Source: an uncultured Thomasclavelia sp.
GTDB lineage: Bacteria > Bacillota_I > Bacilli_A > Erysipelotrichales > Coprobacillaceae
Direction: 5' to 3'
Length of the DNA stretch: 53,225 nucleotides
Assembly (NCBI RefSeq): GCF_944324745.1
Contig: NZ_CALUXO010000053.1
Coordinates: forward strand, 1-53,225
The notes beneath the pieces were generated by a model, which worked only from the letters and a program-made list of their open reading frames with translations, made no database searches and had not been told where the DNA came from. Every line of letters starts with the position of its first letter. Positions within the stretch are counted from its first letter, which is position 1. Below, piece after piece: positions 6,149-22,831 of the stretch. Both the position numbers and the translations under genes were made by a program.

Positions 6149-9100
6149 TTAATATCTTTTTTTCAATTGATAAATAATGATTCCTGAAGCTACTAAAACT
6201 AATAATGCTGCTGTAAACATCGTTTCATCACCAGTAGCAACTTTTTTAGTCTGTTGCTTAGTAACTTGATCACTAGTCTGATCATCTACTTGACTTTGAC
6301 TATCATCAATTACTTCATTAGTTTCATCGTTTGTTATTTCTTGATTAACTAATGTATAGTTGTATGGAATTACTGTCACATCATTTAAAATACCATATTC
6401 ATCACCATCACGATCATCATCTTGATTGACAGCTAAAACTGCATTTAATAATGTAGAAGCAACTTTAACTTCAATTGTATTAGTTCCACTATTTAAATAT
6501 GGCCCAATATCAACTAATGTATCAATTTGATTTACTGGAATTGTTTGTCCATTGATCAATAATTCATAAGTATCTGTTATGGTACCTAAATCTAAATAAG
6601 CGCCACTACCTTCTTGCCAACCTTGATCAACTTCAAAAGTAGCTTTATATGTTCCAATTCCTGATACATCCTGACAACCATCAAGTTGATTCCAAGGGAC
6701 TAATTGTTTTAAATCAGCAAATTCAAGATATTCTTTTTTCGTACTAGTAGGATTATCTCCTGGTAGCCAGCTTTCAATCGTTAAGTCCCAATTATCAATG
6801 ACAAAACTATCTTGAGCCTGTGGCAATGATATAGCTACCTGTTTACCATCTGATAAGACCACATTAGCTTCTTGATTAGAGCCGATTGCAATTAATTGAT
6901 CATTTTCATTATACGCTACTTTAATATCGCTGCTAGTAGCTGTGGCTACATCTTTTAATGGTTCATCCATTAAAACAATTATAGTTGAATCATTACCACT
7001 TAAACTTAAATCTACCGTTACCGTATTACCATCACTGCTATATTTAGCTATAGGCGTAATCTTACCAGTCCAAGTATTAAATTGATAAGGAATACCACTA
7101 CCTTTTAATGTTACTATCGTATTAATATCTGCAATCGATGGAGCTTCACGATAAGTATCCACATCACCATAATTATAGAAATAATAAATATCCTTGTCTT
7201 CATCTTGACGATGAACATTTAGTAATTTTGTTTGCTGACTATAAGCTGCTGCCGGTGTAATTTGTAATTCTTGTAACACTTGATATACTTGATCAACACT
7301 GGCAACCTGACGCACATTTGTTTGTTGCATTAATTCACTAATAATTGGATTAATATCACTTTCTTGATAGAAAGCATTTTGACTTGGTAAATCTCCCACA
7401 ATAATAATTGGTAAACCATTTTTAGCATATTCTAAAAATCTCTTTGCCGTTTTTTCTGGTAGATCCTCCTGATAATTTAAGATCAGTGCCTGATAAGCAG
7501 GACCATCATAATCCAAACGGCCATTAGTTACTGTGGCATTTTCTAAATCAAGACTAGCTGGTGAAACAAAATCATAAGTATAACCATTTTGTTCCAACAA
7601 ACCATTATCTTCGTATATTTTCTGACATCCAACAAAGTCAATATTTTCATAATAACTATGATCATAAATAGCTAAATCAACTTTAGCTTCGCCTTGACGT
7701 AACAGATATTGATTACGGGCAATAAAATCTGTATAACTACGCGCATCGGTCCAGTTAGGTTGTCTTTCACCCCAGCTATTTGACCATGTTGACGCTTCAA
7801 AACCATCAAAACCTGGCCATTGAACCCCATCGACATATCCATTAACACTACCTGGTCCATCATATTGTCCATTATAAGCATAACCATGGAAAACAACCTG
7901 ATTTACACCTCCGGCAAAAGCTCGCTGAACATGCCACGCCTGGCTTTGGAAAGTTTGTTGATAGTTACCACAATCTTTTTCACCATTACCCCGAGTCTTG
8001 TATTCTCCAGTTTCCGGATCTTTTTCATTCCATTGTTCGGTCCATTCAGCAGCTGACTCAATTGAATAAAGTTCTTTATCAGTTAAATGAACCGCTCCTG
8101 ATTGTAAACGATAAAAATCTAAATAATCATCACCATATAAAGTTTCTGTTTCTGGAATATCAACATACATCGCTGTTCTTGCTGTTTCTAATGTTTTTCC
8201 ATATGATGTTTGATAACGTAATTCTAAACCATACTTTTGGCAAAATTCTTGTAATGGTTTAAGATGATTTTCAATATACAAATCAGTCAAATAATCTTTA
8301 AAATCATTTTGCAGCGCTTCATTATTTTTATTAAATGAAAAATCTGGTTCTGGTTCTCCCATATAATTACCTATAGCATCTTGGTCATAGATAGCTGGTA
8401 AATAAGCTGCAACATCATAATTATTTTTTTCTTCAAAACCGGTTAATAAACCGTAAGTCCAATCTAAATGAGTTTCAAACTCTAATGAATCAATAAATAA
8501 AGATTTTACATTCTTAAAACCATCACCATAATATGGTATCAAGTTATTTTCCCAATAATCAATAATCATTTGACTACCAGCTTTACTGTAATGATCAACT
8601 TGATTATTTCCATATTTTTGATTTCCTGATGGATGCTGCCACCAGGCAAATAACACATATTCTCCATCATCTTCAGGAGTCCATGAAGTCGTATAAGTAC
8701 CATCTTCATTAGTGATAACGTTGTTAATGTCTAATGATATACAACTATCAAAATCTAATACTTTATTTTCCTTATCGACATATTTGGCAATCGTAACTGC
8801 CGCTAATTCAATTTTTCCATTAACTAAACTAACATCTTCCAATGCTTCATCAGACATTGGTAACTGACCATTAAATGGATTATCCTTAGTAATTCCATCT
8901 TGATAAGCCCCGTCTAATTCCATTTGAGCTCCTTGACTTGGATCATTGACATCTTTGATTGTTGGTAAAGCTAGTGGCCAAGCAGGAGTCATCGTAAAAT
9001 CAATTGTAAAAACATATTCTCCGGCCACTTCTAACATATGTTTGATCATTTCATTCCATTGTTCACTGCCCCAATCAATTGAATCGCCACCTTCACCGCC

Positions 9101-9355
9101 AGTAGCTACTGGAACTATCTCAGCCCCACCAAAACCAGCATTGACCATTGATTTAATTTCAGCTTCAATCTCGGCTTTAGTCATATGTGATCCCGGAACC
9201 CACCAACGTGTCCGAGGACGATTTTCCATTGCAACATCAACAAATCCATCTATAAACGGATCATTCCCAGCTGCCTGACTAGGAATAATTAAACCACCGA
9301 CTAATAATGTAGTTGCCATAATTCCTACTAATCCTTTTTTCCATGTTTTTTTCAT
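6149..9355 (-). CDS. Secreted, cell-wall-anchored GH106-like glycosidase (alpha-L-rhamnosidase family)
   Basis: About 1068 residues. Residues 1-28 form a signal peptide (MKKTWKKG, hydrophobic core, cleavage near SQAAG). The mature start RPRTRWWVPGSHMT followed by AGFGGAEIVPVA matches the N-terminus of GH106/alpha-L-rhamnosidase-like enzymes. A beta-sandwich, sugar-binding-like domain (about 860-1010) precedes a polar Gln/Thr/Asp linker. The C-terminus carries VATGDE, a hydrophobic helix and KKRY, a TGD-type sortase signal. The enzyme probably displays on the wall and trims rhamnose-containing or related plant or host glycans. The true sugar is not established. GGAGG precedes the ATG. The divergent AraC regulator suggests substrate induction. 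Confidence 0.8.
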   Translation of the reverse strand: MKKTWKKGLVGIMATTLLVGGLIIPSQAAGNDPFIDGFVDVAMENRPRTRWWVPGSHMTKAEIEAEIKSMVNAGFGGAEIVPVATGGEGGDSIDWGSEQWNEMIKHMLEVAGEYVFTIDFTMTPAWPLALPTIKDVNDPSQGAQMELDGAYQDGITKDNPFNGQLPMSDEALEDVSLVNGKIELAAVTIAKYVDKENKVLDFDSCISLDINNVITNEDGTYTTSWTPEDDGEYVLFAWWQHPSGNQKYGNNQVDHYSKAGSQMIIDYWENNLIPYYGDGFKNVKSLFIDSLEFETHLDWTYGLLTGFEEKNNYDVAAYLPAIYDQDAIGNYMGEPEPDFSFNKNNEALQNDFKDYLTDLYIENHLKPLQEFCQKYGLELRYQTSYGKTLETARTAMYVDIPETETLYGDDYLDFYRLQSGAVHLTDKELYSIESAAEWTEQWNEKDPETGEYKTRGNGEKDCGNYQQTFQSQAWHVQRAFAGGVNQVVFHGYAYNGQYDGPGSVNGYVDGVQWPGFDGFEASTWSNSWGERQPNWTDARSYTDFIARNQYLLRQGEAKVDLAIYDHSYYENIDFVGCQKIYEDNGLLEQNGYTYDFVSPASLDLENATVTNGRLDYDGPAYQALILNYQEDLPEKTAKRFLEYAKNGLPIIIVGDLPSQNAFYQESDINPIISELMQQTNVRQVASVDQVYQVLQELQITPAAAYSQQTKLLNVHRQDEDKDIYYFYNYGDVDTYREAPSIADINTIVTLKGSGIPYQFNTWTGKITPIAKYSSDGNTVTVDLSLSGNDSTIIVLMDEPLKDVATATSSDIKVAYNENDQLIAIGSNQEANVVLSDGKQVAISLPQAQDSFVIDNWDLTIESWLPGDNPTSTKKEYLEFADLKQLVPWNQLDGCQDVSGIGTYKATFEVDQGWQEGSGAYLDLGTITDTYELLINGQTIPVNQIDTLVDIGPYLNSGTNTIEVKVASTLLNAVLAVNQDDDRDGDEYGILNDVTVIPYNYTLVNQEITNDETNEVIDDSQSQVDDQTSDQVTKQQTKKVATGDETMFTAALLVLVASGIIIYQLKKRY

Positions 9356-9378
9356 ATCCTACCTCCATCGCTGTCTAA

Positions 9379-9407
9379 ATAATACCGTTTTACTAAATAA
9401 ATTAATA
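9379..9407 (-). promoter_or_regulatory. Weak promoter of the GH106-like gene
   Basis: On the minus strand TATTAT (9384-9379) is preceded at 17 bases by the poor -35 TATTAA. The predicted start is about 15-20 bases before the GH106 start codon. A weak -35 next to the upstream repeats fits activator dependence. Confidence 0.35.
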
Positions 9408-9416
9408 TTGACGAAT

Positions 9417-9452
9417 CGGACATTTATTATGAAAAAAAACGACATTTTTTAT
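9417..9452. promoter_or_regulatory. Tandem 22-bp-spaced repeats, candidate AraC operator
   Basis: CGGACATTTATTAT at 9417-9430 and ACGACATTTTTTAT at 9439-9452 match at 11 of 14 positions with a 22-bp period, two helical turns. They lie immediately upstream of the weak GH106 -35 and overlap the AraC gene's promoter region. Confidence 0.45.
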
Positions 9453-9467
9453 CTTCATGTCAAATAA

Positions 9468-9476
9468 TGCTATAAT
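9468..9476 (+). promoter_or_regulatory. Extended -10 of the AraC-family gene
   Basis: TGC followed by TATAAT at 9471-9476 with no good -35. It falls inside the longer possible frame, which supports the downstream start at 9499. Confidence 0.5.
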
Positions 9477-9498
9477 TAAGGTAACGGAGGCGAATATT

Positions 9499-10539
9499 AT
9501 GAGCAAATTATTTTTAGATACTTTAACCGATCAAGAAAAACAACATCCAACTTTTTCTAAGCATAATCCTAATTCTTATTTAAGCAATCAGCCAGTAAGC
9601 AACAATAATTTTGAATTACGAAAAATTTTAAAATACTTTGATTCTAGTAAGACTTATATGTCATTAAATGCATCAGAAGAATTTAATAATTCACTTTCTA
9701 TTGATATTAAATTGGAACAGCTAAATCAAATAGATAAAGATTTAAAGGTTACTTATCGAAAAAGCGTCTATCATAATCATGATTTCTTTGAAATAATCTA
9801 TGTCTATGCTGGTAAATGTATTACAATTATCAATGATCATAAAATCGAACTACCAGTTAATCACCTTTGTCTATTTGACTTACAAACCGTCCATCAATTA
9901 ATCATCCCTGATGACCAAACAAAAGTATTTAATATTTTAATTAGTCAGGAATTATTAACTCAAACTTTTTTACAATTATTAGATAATAATGATTTTGTTT
10001 CTAATTTCTTTATTAAATCAATTTATAATATCTCCAAACAAAATGAATTTCTAATTTTTGACTTAAACCAATATGACACCGCTTTATCTTATGTTAAACA
10101 AATCCTGGTCGAATTTTTTAGCCATAAGCCTTATTACAATAGTATGATTCAAATACTACTAGCAGCATTATTTCTATCATTAGCTAGACTATATCAATCA
10201 AAATTAGTCACTACAACAAAACAAGATCATAAAATTGATATCCAGCAATTATTGACTTATATCCAAGATCATTATCAAACTATCACTTTAAAACAGCTGG
10301 CTGAACATTTTGGCTATACAACTAGAACGATGATGCGTTTTCTTCAAAAGTATACTGGTCATACTTTTACAGAAATTCTTAAAGATTATCGCTTACAAAA
10401 TGCCTGCTACTATTTAAAAAATACTTCGACTCCAATTGATGAAATCGCTCAAATGACCGGTTATGGTGATCGCAGTTATTTTGATAAAGTATTTAAACAA
10501 ACATACCATCTTACACCAAAAGAATATCGTGATGCTTAA
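9499..10539 (+). CDS. AraC-family transcriptional regulator
   Basis: About 346 residues. A cupin-like sensing region carries YRKSVYHNHDFFEIIYVYAG and a following beta-rich stretch. The C-terminal 100 residues hold the AraC double helix-turn-helix: the first helix pair is near LKQLAEHFGYTTRTMMRFL and the second near IDEIAQMTGYGDRSYFDKVF. The signature ends with YHLTPKEYR. CGGAGG lies before the ATG at 9499; a longer frame from 9457 would run across its own -10 box. It is divergent from the wall-anchored glycosidase and is likely its sugar-responsive activator. The ligand is unknown. Confidence 0.9.
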   Translation: MSKLFLDTLTDQEKQHPTFSKHNPNSYLSNQPVSNNNFELRKILKYFDSSKTYMSLNASEEFNNSLSIDIKLEQLNQIDKDLKVTYRKSVYHNHDFFEIIYVYAGKCITIINDHKIELPVNHLCLFDLQTVHQLIIPDDQTKVFNILISQELLTQTFLQLLDNNDFVSNFFIKSIYNISKQNEFLIFDLNQYDTALSYVKQILVEFFSHKPYYNSMIQILLAALFLSLARLYQSKLVTTTKQDHKIDIQQLLTYIQDHYQTITLKQLAEHFGYTTRTMMRFLQKYTGHTFTEILKDYRLQNACYYLKNTSTPIDEIAQMTGYGDRSYFDKVFKQTYHLTPKEYRDA

Positions 10540-12873: not shown

Positions 12874-12933
12874 ATTTTTTATTATGGATAAAAAATAACG
12901 ATATTATTTTAATTTTTACTATTTAAAAGTATC

Positions 12934-13884
12934 TTAATGGCTGGTAGATTGTAGATATCGTTGATACGCTTCATTCCAGCTTTGATAATTTTCATCATTT
13001 CGATGATCACCTAATTGAAAATTATTTTTTAAATAATCTCCTAAATAACTGGTGACTTTTTTAGCACCATAATGATTTAAATGATCTCCTTGATCACGGC
13101 TATCTTGATTCCAATCGATACCAGGTGAGGTTTGGGGTAAATTCAAATCTAAATAAGGAATTTGATGTTCATTGACAAATTGTGATATTCCATTATGGCG
13201 TGGATAATTCCAGTTAATAGTACTTGGCGTACTTAAAAGCATAAAAGTTACCCCGTTTTCTTGACAAAATTTCGCCATATCTAAAACATAGTTTTCATTT
13301 ATTTTATTAATTTTTTGAATTTGATCACTGTAAGTCATATAATTACTATCGTCGGCTTTAGCTACTACCGTACTATAAGAATATCCTTTATAATCATCTC
13401 TCCAAGTATATTCAACATCACCACCAAAATCAATTACCTTTAATGACTTCCAGCGATTATGATATTTAAAAATCGGTAATTTATTTTCAAATATGTTTGT
13501 TAAGGCGGTGGCTAAAGAAAAGTTACGATAAATAGCATCAGTCTCTAAGATCACCAGTTTGGGTTTTTGTTTTTCAAAAGCCTGAAGTAAAAAGTATTTA
13601 CTTTCAGTCAATAGTTGACCAGAAGTTCCACAAACATAGCTAGTAATTCCATGGTCATTCCATAACTGCATTGGTGTAATTGCCGAATAGGATTCACTAT
13701 CACCAATTACTAAAACATCAATACTATTTTCTTTTTCACCTAATATGCCATTAGCTGATAAATTATCCATTCCAAACACATCAAGATTATTTTTAGGAAT
13801 AACAATCAGTGAAGCTCCTAATAAAAATAATCCCAAACCAATAATAAATAATGTACTATACAAGATATTTTTCACTTGCTGCAT
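12934..13884 (-). CDS. DltD-like SGNH-fold membrane protein of the Dlt-like operon
   Basis: About 316 residues. One N-terminal membrane helix (about 7-30) anchors an extracytoplasmic SGNH domain. The nucleophile motif is VIGDSESYSAI with Ser63, and the partner motif DQGDHLNHYG lies near the C-terminus with the Asp-x-x-His-like pair. DltD proteins act with the MBOAT protein DltB in moving D-alanyl groups onto teichoic acid. GAGGTG precedes the ATG at 13884, 13 bases after the MBOAT gene. It is the last gene of the five-gene operon. The group it transfers is not known here. Confidence 0.8.
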   Translation of the reverse strand: MQQVKNILYSTLFIIGLGLFLLGASLIVIPKNNLDVFGMDNLSANGILGEKENSIDVLVIGDSESYSAITPMQLWNDHGITSYVCGTSGQLLTESKYFLLQAFEKQKPKLVILETDAIYRNFSLATALTNIFENKLPIFKYHNRWKSLKVIDFGGDVEYTWRDDYKGYSYSTVVAKADDSNYMTYSDQIQKINKINENYVLDMAKFCQENGVTFMLLSTPSTINWNYPRHNGISQFVNEHQIPYLDLNLPQTSPGIDWNQDSRDQGDHLNHYGAKKVTSYLGDYLKNNFQLGDHRNDENYQSWNEAYQRYLQSTSH

Positions 13885-13897
13885 AATTACACCTCGA

Positions 13898-15490
13898 TTA
13901 AAAATTTGCATAAATCGGATCAACTGGTATATATCCAGTTCCATAAGCCCCAAATACAATAATGAAAATAATTAATGCATAATATAGGCCCCATCTTATT
14001 ACAATATTTTGCTTAGCAACTGTCTGTCTGATCTTAATATTTTTTTCTTTAAGAATACTAATGATCAAAACAATGATCACAGCGATGGCCAGAATGAAAA
14101 AATCATATTTATCCATACCTAATTCATATATTTTTCCATTAGTAAATGATTGCAATGAAAAATCACTAAAAATTTTGATAAACATTCTTATACCAACTTT
14201 TAATCCTTCTGCTCTAAAAAATAATTCTCCGATAACTACTAGTATACTTGTTTTAATTATCCGAATAAGTTTATATCCAAAACTTGCTGGATTGATATGT
14301 AATTTGTTTTGAATCTTTTTAATTGTTGGCTCAATAAAATTAGCCGTTAAAATTAAAGCAAAGTGATATAATCCAAAAAAGATATAATTCCAACCGACTC
14401 CATGCCACAACCCATTACCTAACCAGACTGCCAGTAATGCAATCCCGCCAGCCAATACGGCACCATGATGATTACCAAACCGTTTTCGAAGTTTTGATGA
14501 TAAATTTTTTATCGGTTTACTCATTGAAAGGGGATAAAACAAATAATCCTTAAACCACAAACCTAAAGAAATATGCCAGCGCTGCCAAAATTCTGAAATA
14601 CTTTTAGAAAAAAATGGTTGCTTAAAATTTTCTGGCATTCTAACTCCAAAAATCTGGCCACTTCCAATGACGACATCCATTGTTCCAGAAAATTCCATAT
14701 ATAATTGGCAAGTATATAACAAAGCGCCAACAAAAATAATACCACCATCATAACTGCTATAATCTTGAAAAACATTACTAATAAATGCATTAAGACGATC
14801 AGCAATGACCATTTTTTTAAACAGCCCATAAAATATTCTCTGGATTCCAAAGGTTAGATTTTGATATGTAACAGGATTTCCTTGATATAAAGATTCTGTA
14901 ACTTCACTATATCGACAAATTGGCCCTTCCATTGTTAGTGGAAAAAAACTCATATACAAAGCTAATCGTCCTAGACTTTGATCAGCTTTTATTTTTTCAT
15001 AATAGACATCAAATAAATATGATATCGCTCTTAAAGTATAAAACGATATTCCAATTGGAATAATAAATGCTGGAACACTCAATGAAAAATCTAATTTAAA
15101 TATAGCTAGCAGGCTATTTAGATTCTTGATTAAAAAGCCACTATATTTTAAAACAACTAAAATACCTAAATTTAAAGTTACTGCCAAAGCCAAAATCTTT
15201 CTTTGTTTATTGCGATAACAAAGTTTAAGACTTTTGCGCTCACTTTTGGCAACCGTTTTTAATTCTTCATTCTGACGGTTTTGAACTAAAGTCAACCAAA
15301 TACCAAAATGATGAATACCAAAAGTAGCTAAGACTAAATAAATGACTAATTCTTTACTGATCAAATAGAAAAAACAATAACTACATAATAGTAATACCAG
15401 CCACCGATATTTCTTTTTTACCAAATTATAAACAATGACAACAAGTGGTAAAATGATTCCTAAATACTCAAAGGAACAATATGAACGCAT
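13898..15490 (-). CDS. MBOAT-family membrane acyltransferase (DltB/AlgI-like)
   Basis: About 530 residues with about a dozen hydrophobic segments. The MBOAT signature regions are present: FWQRWHISLGLWFKDYLF and GNGLWHGVGWNYIFFG, the latter holding the conserved catalytic His. DltB uses a carrier-protein thioester on the cytoplasmic side and passes the acyl group outward; AlgI acetylates alginate. The adjacent carrier protein favours the DltB-like mode. The start codon lies one base after the carrier stop, with AGAGG inside the carrier's last codons, so translation is coupled. The recipient polymer is unknown. Confidence 0.85.
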   Translation of the reverse strand: MRSYCSFEYLGIILPLVVIVYNLVKKKYRWLVLLLCSYCFFYLISKELVIYLVLATFGIHHFGIWLTLVQNRQNEELKTVAKSERKSLKLCYRNKQRKILALAVTLNLGILVVLKYSGFLIKNLNSLLAIFKLDFSLSVPAFIIPIGISFYTLRAISYLFDVYYEKIKADQSLGRLALYMSFFPLTMEGPICRYSEVTESLYQGNPVTYQNLTFGIQRIFYGLFKKMVIADRLNAFISNVFQDYSSYDGGIIFVGALLYTCQLYMEFSGTMDVVIGSGQIFGVRMPENFKQPFFSKSISEFWQRWHISLGLWFKDYLFYPLSMSKPIKNLSSKLRKRFGNHHGAVLAGGIALLAVWLGNGLWHGVGWNYIFFGLYHFALILTANFIEPTIKKIQNKLHINPASFGYKLIRIIKTSILVVIGELFFRAEGLKVGIRMFIKIFSDFSLQSFTNGKIYELGMDKYDFFILAIAVIIVLIISILKEKNIKIRQTVAKQNIVIRWGLYYALIIFIIVFGAYGTGYIPVDPIYANF

Positions 15491-15491
15491 C

Positions 15492-15722
15492 TTAATTATC
15501 CTCTTGTAAAGACATGATCATTGTATAGATAGCTTTTACTGAATTAAAATTAGCAGGAACGATAGCTACTGCCGGAACAGTAACATCAAATTCATCTTCA
15601 ATTTCAGCAACTAATGATAATATCGTTAGTGAATCTAAAATGTGATTATCAACTAATCTTTCATTATTTTCTAAATCTTCTCCTGGTAATAAGTCTTCTA
15701 AAATTTCTAATAATTTATCCAC
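15492..15722 (-). CDS. Acyl/peptidyl carrier protein (DltC-like)
   Basis: Seventy-six residues, the usual carrier size. The phosphopantetheine attachment site is NHILDSLTILSL with Ser31. An acidic helix AEIEDEFDVTVP follows, as in DltC and other carriers. It should be converted to holo form by a PPTase; an Sfp-type gene lies 5 kb away. The start is GTG, with AGGAGG eight bases upstream. It sits between the decarboxylase and MBOAT genes, so its thioester cargo is probably loaded by the adenylating ligase and used by the MBOAT protein. Confidence 0.88.
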   Translation of the reverse strand: MDKLLEILEDLLPGEDLENNERLVDNHILDSLTILSLVAEIEDEFDVTVPAVAIVPANFNSVKAIYTMIMSLQEDN

Positions 15723-15734
15723 CTTTATTTCCTC

Positions 15735-16913
15735 CTATTGAATTGCTCGATTTAATAAATCGGTTCTAACTGAATCACGAATACAAATAAAACTATTATC
15801 GGGATTAACGCGAATTATCATTGGTAAATCCCGGCTTAAAAATAACGAAATACCTTCCATCATACAATATGCACCAGTTTGCCTAAATACCAATAAATCT
15901 CCTATTTGTAAATTGGAAATAGGCAACTGTTTAACTAAAATGTCATTGACAGTACATAAAGCCCCACAAATATTCCAATTAATTTCATTTTGCTTATTTC
16001 TAGCTGGATAAATATCCATCAATGGATGTTTCATTGCCATTGATTGTCCATAATAAACTAAATGATTGATACCCCCATCAACAATGGCATAGTTTTGATT
16101 ATTATTAGTTTTTGTATCAACAACTTTTGTCAAATAATAGCCACAACTCGCTGCAATGCTGCGCCCTAATTCTAAAGTAATCGTGGCTGGATAATTAATT
16201 GTCTGCAATAACTTGGAAAATTCCACCAAATGATTGCTTTCATTAAAATTATCCTCTTTAAAATACGTTACTGGTAACCCGGGTCCAAATTCTAAATTAT
16301 GAATTTTAATTCCTGTTTGATCAGTAATTTCATTTAAAAATTCTTCAAGAAATTTCACTTCTTTAGTTAATTTTTTTAATGAATATTTTTGAGTTCCAGA
16401 AAAATATTGAATCCCAAAAACTTCAATATACGGATTTGATTTTGTTTCTTGCAATAATTGTAATACTTCTTCTTTATCTAATCCAAATTGATTACCACTA
16501 GTCAATCGGATCAACATTGGAGTTATTTGCTGATGCTTTTTAGCACATTGTTCTAATAAACTAAATTGATTTAACGATTCGACTGTATATGCTCGAACTG
16601 ATAAATGAGAACCAATTAACTCGTCAATCACTTCTGGTGTTTTATATACACCAGAAACAACTAATTGTTTTGGCGCAATCTGTTCTTTTTGGCAAATCCG
16701 AAGTTCCCCTGGTGAACAAACTTCAAAACAGGTAACTTGTGATTTTAAAGAGCTAATGATAAATGGATTAGCTTTCATGGCATAACAGATTTTGATTTTA
16801 TCAGTTAAAATTGTTGATAAAAGTTTTATTCTTTCATTTAAGCGATTGATGTCAAAAACATACATCGGGGTAGGATATTTTTCAACCAATTTTTTTACCA
16901 TTATCTCATTCAT
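15735..16913 (-). CDS. Fold-III PLP-dependent decarboxylase (DAP/ornithine decarboxylase family, BtrK-like context)
   Basis: About 392 residues in the Orn/DAP/Arg decarboxylase-2 family. The PLP lysine is Lys47 in CYAMKANP. Later motifs are IQYFSGTQK, the phosphate-binding FGPGLP, ELGRSIAA in the place of EPGR, the catalytic Cys/Asp region CGALCTVNDIL, and RQTGAYCM. These point to a working decarboxylase rather than an alanine racemase. The ATG at 16913 overlaps the ligase stop by eight bases. BtrK of butirosin synthesis, from the same family, decarboxylates a glutamyl group held on a carrier. A similar on-carrier reaction is my inference. Ordinary lysine biosynthesis (LysA) is the alternative but fits the operon poorly. 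Confidence 0.75.
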   Translation of the reverse strand: MNEIMVKKLVEKYPTPMYVFDINRLNERIKLLSTILTDKIKICYAMKANPFIISSLKSQVTCFEVCSPGELRICQKEQIAPKQLVVSGVYKTPEVIDELIGSHLSVRAYTVESLNQFSLLEQCAKKHQQITPMLIRLTSGNQFGLDKEEVLQLLQETKSNPYIEVFGIQYFSGTQKYSLKKLTKEVKFLEEFLNEITDQTGIKIHNLEFGPGLPVTYFKEDNFNESNHLVEFSKLLQTINYPATITLELGRSIAASCGYYLTKVVDTKTNNNQNYAIVDGGINHLVYYGQSMAMKHPLMDIYPARNKQNEINWNICGALCTVNDILVKQLPISNLQIGDLLVFRQTGAYCMMEGISLFLSRDLPMIIRVNPDNSFICIRDSVRTDLLNRAIQ

Positions 16914-18405
16914 GAACAACACTCCTTTTCAATAATAATTTTCGATCTATTTTTCCATTTTTATTTAATATAAAATTATCAACTTGTTTAATTTTACTAG
17001 GAATCATATATATCGGTAACTTTTGTTTAAGATCCTGGTAAATAGCCTCTTTTAAACAATCACCTTGATAAAAACAATAAATACGACTTTTTTTATCATC
17101 ATAGACAACACAGCTGCGTATAACACCATTAACACCATTGACTGCCAGTTCAATTTCTTCTAATTCAATTCGATGTCCCTGATGTTTAATTTGAAAATCT
17201 TTACGACCACAAAAATACAAACTGTCATTTTGATCAATGCGTCCTAAATCACCCGTTCGATAAATAATATCAGGATATTTGTCATTTAATGGATTTTGGA
17301 CAAATTTAGTATTAGTTTGTTGTAAATCGTTATAATAACCCAAAGCCAAATTGCCACTAACGACTATTTCGCCAAAATCACTCTCTTGATCATGTTCATC
17401 TAACAAAAATACTCGTCGATTTGAAAAAGGATGATCAATAGGAATTCCCTGTTGATAATCATGATAACAATCAATAATATGATAACTACAGTTACAAGTT
17501 ACTTCAGTTGGTCCATATAAATTAACAAATTCAACTTGTGGTAAACTGCTCATCCATTGTTTTAAATGTGATAATGGCATAACTTCACCACTAAATAATA
17601 CTTTTTTTAAACTTCTGGGTACTTTATAATCTAAACCGTGAAATGATGTAATCAAACATAAAGCCGAAACTGCCCAGATCAAAACAGTTACTTGATGCTG
17701 ACATAAATAATCAATTAATACGACTGGCTGTAAAAACATTTTTTTATCAACAATCACCAAAGTCGCTCCCACTTTTAATGATGTGTAGATATCTTTAACT
17801 GAAACATCAAAATCAAACGGTGCCTGATTAGCCAATATATCTCGATGACCAAATTCAAAAGTTCTGACAAAATCATTGATAAAACTAATTACGCTACGAT
17901 GAGATACGACTACTCCTTTAGGAACACCAGTTGAACCAGAAGTAAAAATTGTATATAACGGATCGATATCTATCATTTTTTGACGAATACTTTTTAGTTT
18001 CTTATAATCACCTGATTGCGTTAGTATTTCTTCAATTAAAACAATCTCTTGTAATCCAAATATTTCTTCAGCCATTTTCAAGTGCTGTTTATCAGTAATC
18101 ACTACCTGACTTTTTAAAATCTGTTTCATTTGTTTTAACCGTGAAACTGGTAAATCAGGATTAAATAAAACATAAAAATTACCTGAATAAACAATCCCTA
18201 AAAAGGATATTAATGTCAAACTGCTTTTTTCCATCAAAACAACAATTGGCTGTTTTGTAAGTTCGTATTTAGCTAGATAACTACCACATATTTGACTTAA
18301 CGTTTCTAGCTTACCGTAAGTAAACGTTCTTTTTTCATCAATAACAGCAACTTTATCTGGTCTAATCTTCGCCTGATATTCTAAATATTCTAATACATTT
18401 TTCAT
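16906..18405 (-). CDS. Amino-acid adenylating ligase (DltA-like A-domain protein)
   Basis: About 499 residues, a stand-alone adenylation enzyme. Core motifs are TSGSTGVPKG (155-164), YGPTE (297-301), YRTGD (382-386) and the C-terminal catalytic Lys485 in NKNGKIDRK. In the pocket-forming segment APFDFDVSVKDIY, Asp200 corresponds to the alpha-amine-binding Asp. Lys204 falls where DltA proteins carry a neutral residue. It should activate an amino acid as adenylate and load the DltC-like carrier. GGAGG precedes the ATG. First gene of the operon. The substrate is not known; an acidic amino acid is inferred from Lys204 and the decarboxylase. Confidence 0.85.
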   Translation of the reverse strand: MKNVLEYLEYQAKIRPDKVAVIDEKRTFTYGKLETLSQICGSYLAKYELTKQPIVVLMEKSSLTLISFLGIVYSGNFYVLFNPDLPVSRLKQMKQILKSQVVITDKQHLKMAEEIFGLQEIVLIEEILTQSGDYKKLKSIRQKMIDIDPLYTIFTSGSTGVPKGVVVSHRSVISFINDFVRTFEFGHRDILANQAPFDFDVSVKDIYTSLKVGATLVIVDKKMFLQPVVLIDYLCQHQVTVLIWAVSALCLITSFHGLDYKVPRSLKKVLFSGEVMPLSHLKQWMSSLPQVEFVNLYGPTEVTCNCSYHIIDCYHDYQQGIPIDHPFSNRRVFLLDEHDQESDFGEIVVSGNLALGYYNDLQQTNTKFVQNPLNDKYPDIIYRTGDLGRIDQNDSLYFCGRKDFQIKHQGHRIELEEIELAVNGVNGVIRSCVVYDDKKSRIYCFYQGDCLKEAIYQDLKQKLPIYMIPSKIKQVDNFILNKNGKIDRKLLLKRSVVHE

Positions 18406-18432
18406 TTTGTCCTCCTTATCTTTACATCTATC

Positions 18433-18486
18433 ACTATAAAACAGCTACCTTTATTAAAGATTTATTGAACCTTAATGTTTGTTAAG
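18433..18486 (-). promoter_or_regulatory. Promoter region of the Dlt-like operon with CTTAA palindrome
   Basis: On the minus strand a -10 TATAGT lies at 18438-18433 without a good -35. CTTAA-N6-TTAAG occurs at 18471-18486, also readable as an imperfect CTTAAC/ATTAAG direct repeat. A weak -35 with an upstream repeat would suit activation by the neighbouring OmpR-type regulator. Confidence 0.35.
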
Positions 18487-18494
18487 ATTTGAAA

Positions 18495-18525
18495 AAAAAC
18501 AACTATCCTCTTTGATAGTTGTTTT
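18495..18525 (-). terminator. Intrinsic terminator after the histidine kinase gene
   Basis: ACAACTATC / GATAGTTGT stem around a six-base loop, extended by A/T pairs, with eight T on the minus strand. It separates the two-component genes from the Dlt-like operon. Confidence 0.85.
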
Positions 18526-20077
18526 ACTTTCGATTAAAAACGATAATAAATTGCGTATGATATGGTTTATCTGGTGGTACTTTAAGGATAATCGTTCCTT
18601 GATGCAGTTCGACAATCTTTTTAGCAATCGATAAACCTAAACCAGTTCCTTTGCCACTGGTTCTGGCCTTATCTGCCATAACAAAGGGTTCAAAGATCGA
18701 TGATGCCAGCTGATGATCGATTCCGATGCCATCATCCCCGATAGTAATGATTATTTGTTTATTAGTTATTTTTAAAGCAACATAGATGGTTGTTCCTTCT
18801 TTATTATATTTTAAACTATTAGAAATTAAATTATCTAATAGACGATTAATTAGTTTAGTATCAAGTTCAAAATAAATGGGTTCATCAGGAATATCAACTT
18901 CTAAATTAAATCTCGATGCAATAATTTCATTATATTTTTGTATCAACATTAATTTTAAGGTTTCACATAGTTCGACTTGTTTTAATTCTATTTGATATTT
19001 AGGATGATCCATGGAAACATAATCAAATAATGTATTGATTAAACCAATTGCATCATCGGCTTTTTTTATCATTATACGTAAATATTTTTCAGCCTGCTTA
19101 TCATCAATCTTGTTATCAATAAAAGCTTTAGCATAACCTTGAACAACTGTCAGTGGTGTTTTTAGATCATGGGATATATCGACGATTAACTGTTCTTTTT
19201 CTTGCCTTGCTGTTTTTAAACGTTCTAACAGATCACGAAACTTGTCTAACACCGTTTGGAATTCACTTGGTAAATGATTATTCTCCACTATTAAATTACC
19301 GTTTTGACATGAATCAATAGCTTTATTTAATGGCATAACTAGTTTTTTGATTTTTCTTGCAAATAATAAACTTTGAACAATTGCTACTAACAAGATAACA
19401 ACTGCGGCGATTAACCAAAGCCAGTTTGTTTCTATAACTACTTTTTCATAAGTTAGATCATTGATTATCGGTGAGATAAATACCAGGGTTCTTTCATCAT
19501 CATTAACAGTAGTATATGAAGTTTTTGTAATTTCATGTTTATTATCATAAAAACCTTTCAAATAATAAAATTCTTTTTTCGTTAACTGTTGTTTATCATT
19601 AAACAAAGTTCCACTAACAATTATCAAATCTTGGTCTAAAACACACTCATCAATAATATACTCCTGTTCATCATCTTGACCATATAAAGTAACATAATAC
19701 AGTTTTTGATTAGTATCTTGATCAATACCCTGATAAACTGAATATGACATCGATTCTTGATTATCATTAATATAAACCAAGTCAGTGTAGCTAACATTTT
19801 CAACTACTTCCTGTCTAGTTCCATAAAGAACTTTTCCATTTTCATCAAAAATAATAAAATCACAGTTTCTAAGCCTATTGGCATCAATTTGAGCAAACTG
19901 ATCATTTTCTAATTCTGTTTGATATTCATATAAAGTATCAATTGTAGGAAAAGCATTTGTAAGATGATTACTAATCCAATAATTAAATAAAATATAAATT
20001 CCTAATAATAAAATGGAATATAAAAAGAATTGTCGTAAACAGATCGTAACAAAACTTCGTTTACGTCTTATTTTCAA
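18524..20077 (-). CDS. Sensor histidine kinase
   Basis: About 517 residues. The order is: a basic start, membrane helix 1 (about 10-32), an extracytoplasmic domain of about 185 residues, membrane helix 2 (WLWLIAAVVILLVAIV), a HAMP-like linker, HisKA with DISHDLKTPLTVVQGYAK, and HATPase with NLISNSLKYN, GDDGIGID and GKGTGLGLSIAKK. It phosphorylates the response regulator encoded just upstream in response to an envelope signal that I cannot name. The start is uncertain. I chose TTG at 20077, which overlaps the regulator by 17 bases; an ATG at 20131 would overlap by 71 bases. Confidence 0.88.
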   Translation of the reverse strand: MKIRRKRSFVTICLRQFFLYSILLLGIYILFNYWISNHLTNAFPTIDTLYEYQTELENDQFAQIDANRLRNCDFIIFDENGKVLYGTRQEVVENVSYTDLVYINDNQESMSYSVYQGIDQDTNQKLYYVTLYGQDDEQEYIIDECVLDQDLIIVSGTLFNDKQQLTKKEFYYLKGFYDNKHEITKTSYTTVNDDERTLVFISPIINDLTYEKVVIETNWLWLIAAVVILLVAIVQSLLFARKIKKLVMPLNKAIDSCQNGNLIVENNHLPSEFQTVLDKFRDLLERLKTARQEKEQLIVDISHDLKTPLTVVQGYAKAFIDNKIDDKQAEKYLRIMIKKADDAIGLINTLFDYVSMDHPKYQIELKQVELCETLKLMLIQKYNEIIASRFNLEVDIPDEPIYFELDTKLINRLLDNLISNSLKYNKEGTTIYVALKITNKQIIITIGDDGIGIDHQLASSIFEPFVMADKARTSGKGTGLGLSIAKKIVELHQGTIILKVPPDKPYHTQFIIVFNRK

Positions 20078-20759
20078 TTTTATAACCCAGCCCTCTAATT
20101 GTTTTAATATATTTAGGATTTGTTGGATCATCTTCAATTTTAGAACGAATATTTGAAATATGAACCATCATGGTATTATCATCATTATCATATAGCTCAC
20201 CATTAATACAACTATATAGCTGAGCTTTAGTAAAAACTCGTTCTGGTTCTTTCATCATCTTAGCTAATATTTTTAATTCCGTTACTGTTAATGAAACTAC
20301 TATACCATTTTTCTTTAATCTAAATTTATCTAAATCAAAATCTAGTTCTCCTAAGATTAAATGATTATCTTGTTTGTTTTGGGTTTCTATTTGATAATTA
20401 TAACGTCTTAACATTGCATTAACATAAGCCAATACTTCTAAAGGATTAAATGGTTTGGTAATATAGCCATCTGCTCCTAAATCTAAACTAGTAATTCGAT
20501 CAACATCCATCGTTCGGGCTGAAATAATAATAATTGGAAAATTTTTAATTTTTCGAACTTCTTTAATAAACTCATAACCATTCATCACTGGCATCATAAT
20601 ATCAACTAAAGCAATTGATATATCTTGCTTACGAATAATTTCCAGTCCTTCTTCACCATTAAAAGCCGTATAAACATTAAAATCTTGCCCATCAAAATAT
20701 AACAGTAATAATTCAACGATATCTTGATCATCTTCTACTATCAGCACATTCGGTTTCAT
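20061..20759 (-). CDS. OmpR-family response regulator
   Basis: About 232 residues. The receiver domain has acidic residues at VEDDQD, the phosphoacceptor Asp53 in LVDIMMPVMNG, and the Lys of YITKPF. A C-terminal winged helix (about 130-230) ends in TIRGLGYKIE. AGGAGG precedes the ATG. It pairs with the overlapping histidine kinase gene. Its position between the PPTase and the Dlt-like operon suggests control of that operon; dlt genes in several Firmicutes are controlled by such systems. Confidence 0.93.
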   Translation of the reverse strand: MKPNVLIVEDDQDIVELLLLYFDGQDFNVYTAFNGEEGLEIIRKQDISIALVDIMMPVMNGYEFIKEVRKIKNFPIIIISARTMDVDRITSLDLGADGYITKPFNPLEVLAYVNAMLRRYNYQIETQNKQDNHLILGELDFDLDKFRLKKNGIVVSLTVTELKILAKMMKEPERVFTKAQLYSCINGELYDNDDNTMMVHISNIRSKIEDDPTNPKYIKTIRGLGYKIENKT

Positions 20760-20835
20760 TAATAATTCCTCCTGTTCTTTAGTATAGCGAATCTAATTCT
20801 AAAAAAGATTATTTCAAAACTAAAGGAAATAAATA

Positions 20836-20861
20836 ATTCCCTTAATTTTTCTTAAGGGAAT
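20836..20861 (-). terminator. Hairpin at the end of the PPTase gene
   Basis: ATTCCCTTAA / TTAAGGGAAT stem with a six-base loop. It includes the last codons of the PPTase gene. The following sequence is AT-rich rather than a pure T run. Confidence 0.55.
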
Positions 20862-21465
20862 CTACTTGCTTAAATTGAATATCTACTAAATTATCGGTAG
20901 CTAGACAAAATAAATAATTACTAGCGATTATTTTTTGATAATAATATATATTATCAACTTTCCATTTTATTAATTTTGAATCTACAGTAAACAAAGCATC
21001 GTTATCGAGTAAACAACTAAATCGATCAAAAGTATTGCTAATACCACTGCCCAAATATTTAACATAACTTTCTTTAGCACACCAGATTTGAAAAAAGCTT
21101 TGTTTTATGTCTAAACTATTATTAAGATAATTAATTTCGCTAGGATTAAAAAAACGTTTTGCTAGTTTTAAATAATGGTCATTACTATTTTTTTTCTTTA
21201 ATTCCATTAATTGGACATCAATACCTAAATTTTGATGACCAAAAGCAACCAGCCAATAAAGACCACTATGAGAAATTGAAAAATGAATTTGGGGATATTT
21301 AATATTTGATGGCTTACCTCGATCGTTATACGTAATTTGCCAGTCATTTTTATTTAAGACTAATCCAAGTGTTTTAAAATAATCTTGGGCCATTAAAAAT
21401 AATAATTCATGTGAAGCTATCTTAGCTTCATTTTTTACTATATATACTATTACAGCATTTTCCAT
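20842..21465 (-). CDS. Sfp-type 4'-phosphopantetheinyl transferase
   Basis: About 207 residues. Family motifs are GKPS then HFSISHSG, the Mg-binding LGIDVQ, RFFNPSE, and FFQIWCAKESYVKYLGSG. It moves phosphopantetheine from CoA to a carrier-protein Ser. The class is Sfp-like rather than the short AcpS, so broad carrier use is expected; the DltC-like carrier nearby is an obvious substrate. No strong ribosome site is present. The ATG at 21465 has a TGGA seven bases upstream; an ATG at 21477 is also possible. It starts about 20 bases after the PrsW terminator. Confidence 0.88.
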   Translation of the reverse strand: MENAVIVYIVKNEAKIASHELLFLMAQDYFKTLGLVLNKNDWQITYNDRGKPSNIKYPQIHFSISHSGLYWLVAFGHQNLGIDVQLMELKKKNSNDHYLKLAKRFFNPSEINYLNNSLDIKQSFFQIWCAKESYVKYLGSGISNTFDRFSCLLDNDALFTVDSKLIKWKVDNIYYYQKIIASNYLFCLATDNLVDIQFKQVDSLKKN

Positions 21466-21484
21466 AATAAAATCCATTAGAGAA

Positions 21485-21508
21485 AAAAGTTGATTAAAAT
21501 CAACTTTT
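21485..21508 (-). terminator. Terminator after the PrsW-family gene
   Basis: AAGTTGATT / AATCAACTT stem with A/T extension and a T run on the minus strand. It lies directly between the PrsW stop and the PPTase start. Confidence 0.7.
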
Positions 21509-22725
21509 TATTCAATCATATTCTCTTTCTTTTTAGCTAACATAGCATATTGTGAAACTTGTCGTAACCCGGCATTTAATAACACTAAAACTGTCACCAC
21601 AGCAATAAATGTTAATAACCATTGCACTAAATAAATATCAGCGCCAAAAGTAATTGGCATATCCCAGATAGCATGTAATGCAATAACATAAACTAAAAAT
21701 TTTAAGAATTGACCACTTAAAAGATGTTTGCTGGTAAGCGGTTCTTCTTTTTTAGCTACGATCAAACCAACCCCGGCAATTGCACTCCAAGTAGTATGAC
21801 AGCCAAAAGATAAAATAGATCTTAATAATAAGATATTTAACATCACACTAATTTGACCATTACTATAGATAAAAGCATTAAAAGCATAACCAGCCGTTTC
21901 AAACACGGCAAAACCAGCTCCAACACAAGCACCAATTAACATTCCATTTAAAATGTATTTAGTATTTTTTCTTCTTACATAAAAAATTACAACGGCTATC
22001 TTTCCAATTTCTTCAATAATTCCTACTAAAATAGCTCCAATATAATCAAGCTGCTCAACATTAATAATTTCATAAAGAATTAAAGTACAAACTAACGATA
22101 AAGCCCCACCGACAAAAAACATCGTTACCACATCAAATATACTAATATTTCGAGGAACATTGACTTCCCAGAAGAAAATTAATGCTGAAAATGGAACCAT
22201 CAGTGCTCCAATAAAAATTGCTCCAGGAATTGCATTGGTGTTATAAAAATTATTAACCATCACAAATAAAGCAATGAAAACAATTAAAAACATCAAAAAA
22301 ACTCGAGAATATAACCAGGGCTTAGGCCAGCTGGAAACCATATCAGCCTCTTTAGGAGTAGTAGTTTTAGTACCGGTTATAAATAACTCTTCCCGTTCTG
22401 CTACAGAATGTTTCTTAAAAACTTCAGAAAATAATTCCTTTAACTTAATTTCAACTTTACCATCTTCACCAGTCATACTATTAATAGTATTAGTAAAATT
22501 ATCTAGCCCCTTTTTTAAATAAGCTTGAATATTTTCACTATTATTATCATTGACTAACTTAGCCCCACAACTAGGACAATAATTCATTACACCGGTATAT
22601 GGCTTGCCACATTTATAACAATAGTGAACTTTGTTATCTTCTACCTTATTTTCATGACCACAATATTTACAAAACTTAGCATTTGCATCAATTGTTCTGC
22701 CACAATTGGAACATACTTTTTCCAT
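21508..22725 (-). CDS. PrsW-family intramembrane metalloprotease with N-terminal zinc ribbons
   Basis: About 405 residues. Two zinc ribbons lie at residues 4-60: CSNCG...CKYCG, then CYKCG...CPSCG. A linker and about eight membrane helices follow. PrsW-type motifs are EEIGK, FAVFETAGYAF and HAIWD, with the His in FGCHTTW. In Bacillus PrsW starts degradation of the anti-sigma factor RsiW. The target here is unknown, and some family members with zinc ribbons have no assigned substrate. AAGGTG precedes the ATG at 22725. Confidence 0.85.
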   Translation of the reverse strand: MEKVCSNCGRTIDANAKFCKYCGHENKVEDNKVHYCYKCGKPYTGVMNYCPSCGAKLVNDNNSENIQAYLKKGLDNFTNTINSMTGEDGKVEIKLKELFSEVFKKHSVAEREELFITGTKTTTPKEADMVSSWPKPWLYSRVFLMFLIVFIALFVMVNNFYNTNAIPGAIFIGALMVPFSALIFFWEVNVPRNISIFDVVTMFFVGGALSLVCTLILYEIINVEQLDYIGAILVGIIEEIGKIAVVIFYVRRKNTKYILNGMLIGACVGAGFAVFETAGYAFNAFIYSNGQISVMLNILLLRSILSFGCHTTWSAIAGVGLIVAKKEEPLTSKHLLSGQFLKFLVYVIALHAIWDMPITFGADIYLVQWLLTFIAVVTVLVLLNAGLRQVSQYAMLAKKKENMIE

Positions 22726-22799
22726 CAAATCACCTTCTTTTTTACTACATTATATACTATATTTAAACAAACGACTATCATTTTTATCTTTACAAAAAA

Positions 22800-22823
22800 C
22801 AAGCAGATAAAATTATCTGCTTG
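22800..22823 (-). terminator. Terminator after the GNAT gene
   Basis: CAAGCAGATAA / TTATCTGCTTG, an 11-bp perfect stem, followed by TTTTTTG on the minus strand. Confidence 0.85.
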
Positions 22824-22831
22824 CAACCAAA

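Follow-up and report, generated by a model that had tools for sequence, protein, structure and literature searches.

A conserved five-gene operon of an uncultured Thomasclavelia sp. as a candidate envelope-modification pathway with on-carrier decarboxylation

What would a bacterium attach to its cell envelope with an operon that joins acyl loading and export to an amino acid decarboxylase? We addressed this question for five genes on a contig of an uncultured Thomasclavelia sp. (NCBI RefSeq assembly GCF_944324745.1, contig NZ_CALUXO010000053.1), whose whole analysed stretch of 53,225 nucleotides is called the window below. All five genes are on the minus strand, contiguous and co-directional from 18405 to 12934, and encode in this order an amino-acid-adenylating ligase, a fold-III pyridoxal phosphate (PLP) decarboxylase, a carrier protein, a membrane-bound O-acyltransferase (MBOAT) and an SGNH protein (Table 1). 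The coordinates and tight packing reported in a preliminary description of this DNA were confirmed, including an 8-nt overlap in which the ligase gene ends and the decarboxylase gene begins with its ATG (16906–16913); the genes that follow are separated by 12, 1 and 13 nt. Pfam/NCBIfam matches back the first four genes, and the SGNH protein matched no Pfam or NCBIfam family. We propose, with a probability of roughly 0.55, that the operon encodes an envelope aminoacylation system in which an acidic amino acid is decarboxylated on its carrier.

The five genes form a conserved unit. Within the window's order, 40 of the 295 genomes sampled (16 of 79 genera) have a decarboxylase of this subfamily, which also occurs in one rumen metagenome-assembled genome (L004) and in two other families of the class; a phylum sample of 392 genomes gave 15 decarboxylase matches, all within this class. 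Among the 43 loci from these sources (the window, the order genomes, the rumen genome and the two further families), 39 held the complete five-gene set on a single strand and within 6.5 kb, and the operon is therefore more than a chance assembly. The decarboxylase is thus conserved with the other four genes and belongs to the operon, so that the comparative-genomic ground for refutation named in the preliminary description does not apply. Of the four incomplete loci, two (L040 and L049) run into contig ends, and the other two (L064 and L065) have ligase and decarboxylase only. The position of the MBOAT and SGNH genes varies, either downstream or upstream of the ligase–decarboxylase–carrier genes. 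The bacteria that have this gene set are gut-type Gram-positives. At L068, a tandem second carrier–MBOAT–SGNH copy follows the full operon, which suggests two acceptors or two acyl groups, and at L055 (genome G073) the decarboxylase and MBOAT frames are interrupted, through decay or assembly error.

The ligase is closer to nonribosomal peptide synthetase (NRPS) adenylation domains (309 bits to that of LgrA) than to DltA (193 bits), and it scored under all curated cut-offs, with 277.5 bits for the DltA equivalog TIGR01734 (cut-off 559.85) and 183.5 bits for the exosortase A-associated TIGR03098 (cut-off 592). We mapped the substrate pocket via the A4–A5 motifs and checked this mapping on a canonical DltA (L101), for which it returned D-L-M...C-T, matching the published D-alanine (D-Ala) pocket (PMC8972799). 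In the window ligase, the pocket residues are D235 V236 K239 I278 L299 S301 L322 C330 N331 K517 in PheA numbering (D200, V201, K204, I243, L270, S272, L296, C304, N305 and K485 in its own), and 39 of 40 comparison loci share the pocket D-V-K-[IVT]-W-A-V-[LM]-F-S-[LV]-C-N, which includes adjacent positions; the sole exception, L072, also differs in gene order. Lysine stands at 239, where DltA has methionine, and serine at 301 in place of the D-Ala-selecting cysteine of DltA. With the pocket residues of DltA replaced (D-V-K...S instead of D-L-M...C), D-Ala is an unlikely substrate, and the pocket fits the idea of the preliminary description that the modification differs from D-alanylation.

Related operons without a decarboxylase fall into three ligase pocket groups: SMSYWVP..., DAK..., and DVK or near-DVK. 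Ligases of the first group lack D235; at L078–L083, L088, L089 and L092–L094, the pocket is SMSYWVPLFALDIC or close to it, with aspartate at 330, and these enzymes perhaps load an omega-amino acid such as 4-aminobutyrate (GABA) or beta-alanine directly. We regard serS, next to these SMS-type operons, as a neighbour by position. At L084, L086 and L091 (DAK... pocket DAKCWVAAFGLGMS), an Asp/Glu-type racemase gene is located directly upstream (TIGR00035, 204 bits; the cysteate-racemase cut-off was also just passed), and D-aspartyl or cysteyl surface modification is possible at these loci. The third group consists of four operons whose ligases are a clade sister to the decarboxylase-bearing ligases in the ligase tree. 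Given that Lys239 occurs with the decarboxylase and, separately, with an acidic-amino-acid racemase, the pockets suggest that K239 binds the acidic group of the substrate, and the DVK pocket, as it also exists without a decarboxylase, hints at the undecarboxylated amino acid as ligase substrate.

In the decarboxylase, the PLP lysine K50 and the catalytic C323 are invariant in the family (residue numbers follow a 395-amino-acid open reading frame that starts at an alternative in-frame GTG at 16922). The signatures by which diaminopimelate (DAP) decarboxylase (DapDC) recognises the distal end of DAP are replaced, RPxxY by YxG... and C-E-x-x-D by C-[TS]-x-x-D (C-T-x-x-D in the window), and ten conserved residues are common to BtrK and absent from three DapDC references, which supports the comparison with BtrK made in the preliminary description. 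The structural model (predicted local distance difference test score, pLDDT, 91.5) had BtrK (7ru7) as its best PDB fold match, with DapDC and related enzymes scoring closely. Scores were 192 bits for the LysA model TIGR01048 (cut-off 297.9) and 183.5 bits for the exosortase A-associated TIGR03099 (cut-off 478). Identity as LysA/DapDC was ruled out by the absence of RPxxY and C-E-x-x-D, the score under the cut-off and the presence of a separate, canonical LysA-like gene elsewhere in the same genome (L002). In the tree, the family formed its own clade (100/99), apart from the DapDC clade (100/100), and the deep branching gave no firm grouping with BtrK. BtrK converts Glu-S-BtrI to GABA-S-BtrI (PMC7857480), while VinO requires the thioester to be formed before it decarboxylates 3-methylaspartyl-S-VinL, and FlvN is selective for Asp (PMC11284099). 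Decarboxylation on a carrier would require loading via another carboxyl, since, on chemical reasoning, a PLP alpha-decarboxylase cannot act on a thioester-bound alpha-carboxyl.

The phosphopantetheine site of the carrier reads D-S-[LF] in nearly all homologues. Both MBOAT histidine motifs, WHIS and WHG, are present in 56 of 58 homologues, and nearly all of these proteins end in Y-x-x-F, the PIYANF of the window having proline for the first phenylalanine of FxYxxF. In PatA, the C-terminal tyrosine is acylated and the group is handed to PatB, with Neisseria PatA ending in FIYANF, whereas DltB uses the separate DltX; systems with a fused motif are said to have no carrier protein (PMC12148441). 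A carrier-protein donor and a fused shuttle in one operon, as read from these motifs, represent an architecture between Dlt and PatAB. The AlphaFold model of the SGNH protein (pLDDT 95.7) shows a helix at the N-terminus and the fold of GDSL/SGNH enzymes, with PatB of Campylobacter jejuni among its matches, and 47 homologues show little or no variation at G61, S63, D264 and H268. A TTG start for this reading frame (to 13959) is unlikely because it would overlap the MBOAT gene. The histidines and C-terminal Tyr motif of the one protein, and the Ser/Asp/His residues on an SGNH fold in the other, place the pair among MBOAT–SGNH shuttle acyltransferases.

On this basis, we propose the following pathway. 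A phosphopantetheinyl transferase (PPTase) would arm the carrier, and the ligase would adenylate Asp or Glu through the side-chain carboxyl and load it onto the carrier. By analogy with VinN/VinO/VinL and BtrK/BtrI, the decarboxylase would then strip the loaded residue of its free alpha-carboxylate, giving a beta-alanyl- or 4-aminobutyryl-S-carrier; the 4-aminobutyryl-like thioester put forward in the preliminary description is kept as an option, and a beta-alanyl group seems at least as likely. Through the MBOAT, the acyl group would cross the membrane and reach the tyrosine of the enzyme's own PIYANF motif, from which the SGNH protein would transfer it to an extracellular hydroxyl, as suggested by the motifs, the fold and the reaction known for PatAB and Dlt. 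With a teichoic-acid-type polymer as the plausible acceptor, the resulting ester would add positive charge. Judging from the distribution of a motif, the linked two-component system may switch the operon on via a site ∼80 nt upstream of the ligase gene. That this would amount to a class of envelope decoration absent from the sources searched, namely beta-alanyl or 4-aminobutyryl esters that derive from a carrier-bound acidic amino acid by decarboxylation and leave the cell through an MBOAT carrying its own shuttle, is to us an even bet.

Decarboxylation could also come first: the PLP enzyme would convert a free amino acid, for instance Asp into beta-alanine, and the ligase would load the resulting amine. 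The four decarboxylase-free operons with the same pocket would then be accounted for, provided that they obtain the amine from another source. We consider this order unlikely, as the residues that hold the free distal amino-acid end in DapDC are absent and BtrK-type residues are present, D235 suits an amino acid whose amino group is close to the carboxyl being activated, and both characterised carrier-linked cases decarboxylate the loaded form. The relatedness to DapDC (lysA, 192 bits) speaks for another substrate, meso-diaminopimelate, which could be loaded via its L-centre in the normal D235 geometry and lose its D-centre carboxyl on the carrier, yielding a lysyl-S-carrier and lysyl esters; an L-end held in a thioester would agree with the loss of RPxxY and of the Glu, and D235 is conserved in the ligase. 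However, the pocket looks too small for DAP, Lys239 would pair better with a short acidic side chain, and the DAK-type sister ligases adjoin an Asp-type racemase, which together leave this substrate distinctly improbable. An ordinary D-alanylation operon next to an unrelated or moonlighting decarboxylase would share the gene logic seen here (ligase, carrier, MBOAT and SGNH) and the partial scores to DltA and DltB (for the latter, TIGR04091 with 151 bits and a cut-off of 375), but the Leu, Met, Cys and Thr of the D-Ala pocket are replaced, the scores are far under the Dlt cut-offs, and the decarboxylase is kept in 39/43 operons; this reading is very improbable.

The same chemistry might instead serve a capsule, an exopolysaccharide or a membrane glycolipid, an acceptor that we regard as possible but doubtful. 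L072 is part of a polysaccharide cluster with genes for glycosyltransferases and polymerase-like proteins, and two sister operons that lack a decarboxylase, L085 and L087, adjoin sugar-nucleotide or polysaccharide genes. On the side of a teichoic-acid-type polymer, the commonest Pfam family in the scanned operon neighbours is CDP-glycerol glycerophosphotransferase, which accounts for just 4 of 65 proteins, and the L004 operon adjoins cytidylyltransferase and glycerophosphotransferase genes. The window genome itself holds a teichoic-acid-type locus (TagGH/TagD/TagB-F-type) with an ABC exporter pair, a glycerol-3-phosphate cytidylyltransferase over the TIGR01518 cut-off and three CDP-glycerol glycerophosphotransferases, and it also encodes two LtaS-like sulfatase-family proteins. 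No canonical DltA and no second MBOAT were found in this genome.

Several observations weigh against the proposed on-carrier pathway. The prediction of an acidic substrate rests on pocket analogy, and the usual binding partner of D235 is the amino group of a substrate activated at its alpha-carboxyl. The four decarboxylase-free operons of the DVK group show that this pocket and the decarboxylase are not strictly tied, and L064 and L065 have neither a carrier nor an MBOAT gene near their ligase and decarboxylase. The decarboxylases are a long-branched clade without firm grouping with BtrK. Finally, the neighbours of the window operon are core genes and not polymer genes, and its acceptor is a guess.

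Set beside characterised systems, the operon works like Dlt crossed with PatAB and VinN/VinO/VinL, and it tested as a member of only the broad MBOAT–SGNH shuttle kind. As in teichoic acid D-alanylation (DltA-DltC-DltX-DltB-DltD), a ligase loads a carrier and an MBOAT and an SGNH protein serve export, but the operon has an extra decarboxylase, a non-D-Ala pocket and a shuttle tyrosine fused to the MBOAT, a role that DltX has in Dlt. No operon protein passed any Dlt equivalog cut-off, and membership in DltA or DltB was rejected on the curated cut-offs and the pocket; the earlier statement that all dltABCD parts are present therefore holds as functional analogy only, the ligase being NRPS-like and the shuttle PatA-like without a separate DltX. 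PatA/PatB shares the MBOAT with C-terminal FxYxxF-type shuttle and the SGNH partner, but uses acetyl-CoA, in contrast to the carrier protein of this operon. VinN/VinO/VinL and FlvN, compared by description, make beta-amino-acid starters of macrolactams with an adenylating enzyme, a PLP decarboxylase and a stand-alone carrier, and thioester formation precedes decarboxylation there, as we propose here; unlike the window operon, they serve actinomycete polyketide synthases, include a second aminoacylation step and have no MBOAT or SGNH protein. In the butirosin set BtrJ/BtrK/BtrI, BtrK acts on Glu-S-BtrI and is the best decarboxylase fold match, whereas BtrJ is an ATP-grasp ligase and the product goes to an antibiotic. 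The exosortase A system-associated set (TIGR03098/TIGR03099) has the order ligase–decarboxylase–carrier, e.g., on Sinorhizobium meliloti pSymA (L137), but its ligase pocket is unrelated, the scores are far under its cut-offs, and no MBOAT or SGNH protein is annotated beside the L137 trio. This trio sits in a glycosyltransferase cluster.

The operon is part of a variable block (Table 1) that is absent from two genomes of the same genus (G003 and G059), in which SpoIIE and GNAT genes are adjacent. The nearest relatives, L034 and L035 from another family, have the same eight-gene order (PPTase, response regulator, histidine kinase, ligase, decarboxylase, carrier, MBOAT and SGNH protein), and in the ligase tree they group with the window (99/95); this shared order and grouping fit transfer as a unit. 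The G+C content gives no foreign signature for the block (29.4% vs. 30.7–31.6%). A PPTase homologue is found beside the operon in several relatives, and the PPTase of the block likely activates the carrier. Next to it, at 21508–22728, the block encodes a PrsW-like intramembrane protease with zinc ribbons, a possible regulatory link.

Table 1. Coordinates of the operon, its variable block and associated elements in the window.
Feature	Position	Strand	Remarks
Amino-acid-adenylating ligase (ANL/NRPS A-domain-like), 499 aa	16906..18405	-	family AMP-binding; AGGAGG just 5' of ATG
Fold-III PLP decarboxylase, ATG start	15735..16913	-	Pfam/NCBIfam family match
Carrier protein, 76 aa, phosphopantetheine site D30-S31-L32	15492..15722	-	PF00550 30.7 bits, over cut-off
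MBOAT O-acyltransferase, WHIS and WHG histidine motifs	13898..15490	-	PF03062 56.6 bits
Acyl-shuttle motif at the MBOAT C-terminus, PIYANF (FxYxxF-type, with acceptor Tyr)	13901..13918	-	protein end ...DPIYANF
SGNH/GDSL-fold extracytoplasmic acyltransferase-like protein (DltD/PatB analogue), ATG start, N-terminal transmembrane helix	12934..13884	-	model and conserved residues
Variable block, ∼10 kb: five-gene operon, kinase, regulator, PPTase, PrsW-like protein	12874..22831		
Sensor histidine kinase	18524..20137	-	same order in L034/L035
OmpR-family response regulator	20061..20759	-	67% identical in L034/L035
Sfp-type phosphopantetheinyl transferase	20842..21477	-	PF01648 64 bits
Terminator-like hairpin between kinase and ligase genes	18496..18525	-	
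Putative response-regulator operator TTAACAAACATTAAGGTT, ∼80 nt upstream of ligase gene	18468..18485	-	

The hairpin between the kinase and ligase genes argues for separate transcription of kinase and operon. At up to 3 mismatches, TTAACAAACATTAAGGTT occurred in 9 of 14 loci with a linked two-component system (window included) and in 0 of 50 loci without one, a descriptive contrast that carries no p-value, as the pattern was derived from the same loci in which it was counted. Control of the operon by the linked regulator via this putative site is predicted. Another conserved motif, CTTAAGAATCTATAAG.CGTTCTTAAGATTGTGTTAAG, lies upstream of the ligase gene at L045, L048, L051 and L055, from a genus that has a linked two-component system and lacks the main operator. 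Elsewhere in the window, genes for a GH106-like secreted glycosidase (1068 aa) and an AraC regulator are located between the SpoIIE and TilS genes (6149–10539); these two genes are ∼105 bp apart in G003 (L136), which marks the region as a second variable insertion. PADLOC gave no matches, and a link to defence was rejected.

In the open-licence literature, we found no description of this gene combination, of GABA or beta-alanine on teichoic acid, or of Dlt in Erysipelotrichia, and the decoration is undescribed in the papers and databases searched. Canonical DltA scored over its cut-off in just 1 of the 295 genomes of the window's order. Modification of teichoic acid charge governs cationic-peptide resistance, autolysis and host recognition. 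If our proposal is true, this would be, to our knowledge, the first known envelope-modification pathway that remodels its acyl group on the carrier. The pathway would then stand in for D-alanylation in bacteria without canonical dltA, and would join carrier-bound decarboxylation, a feature of natural-product biosynthesis, with MBOAT–SGNH envelope acylation. A conserved operon linked to a two-component system and with its own chemistry makes the tuning of surface charge in these bacteria directly testable.

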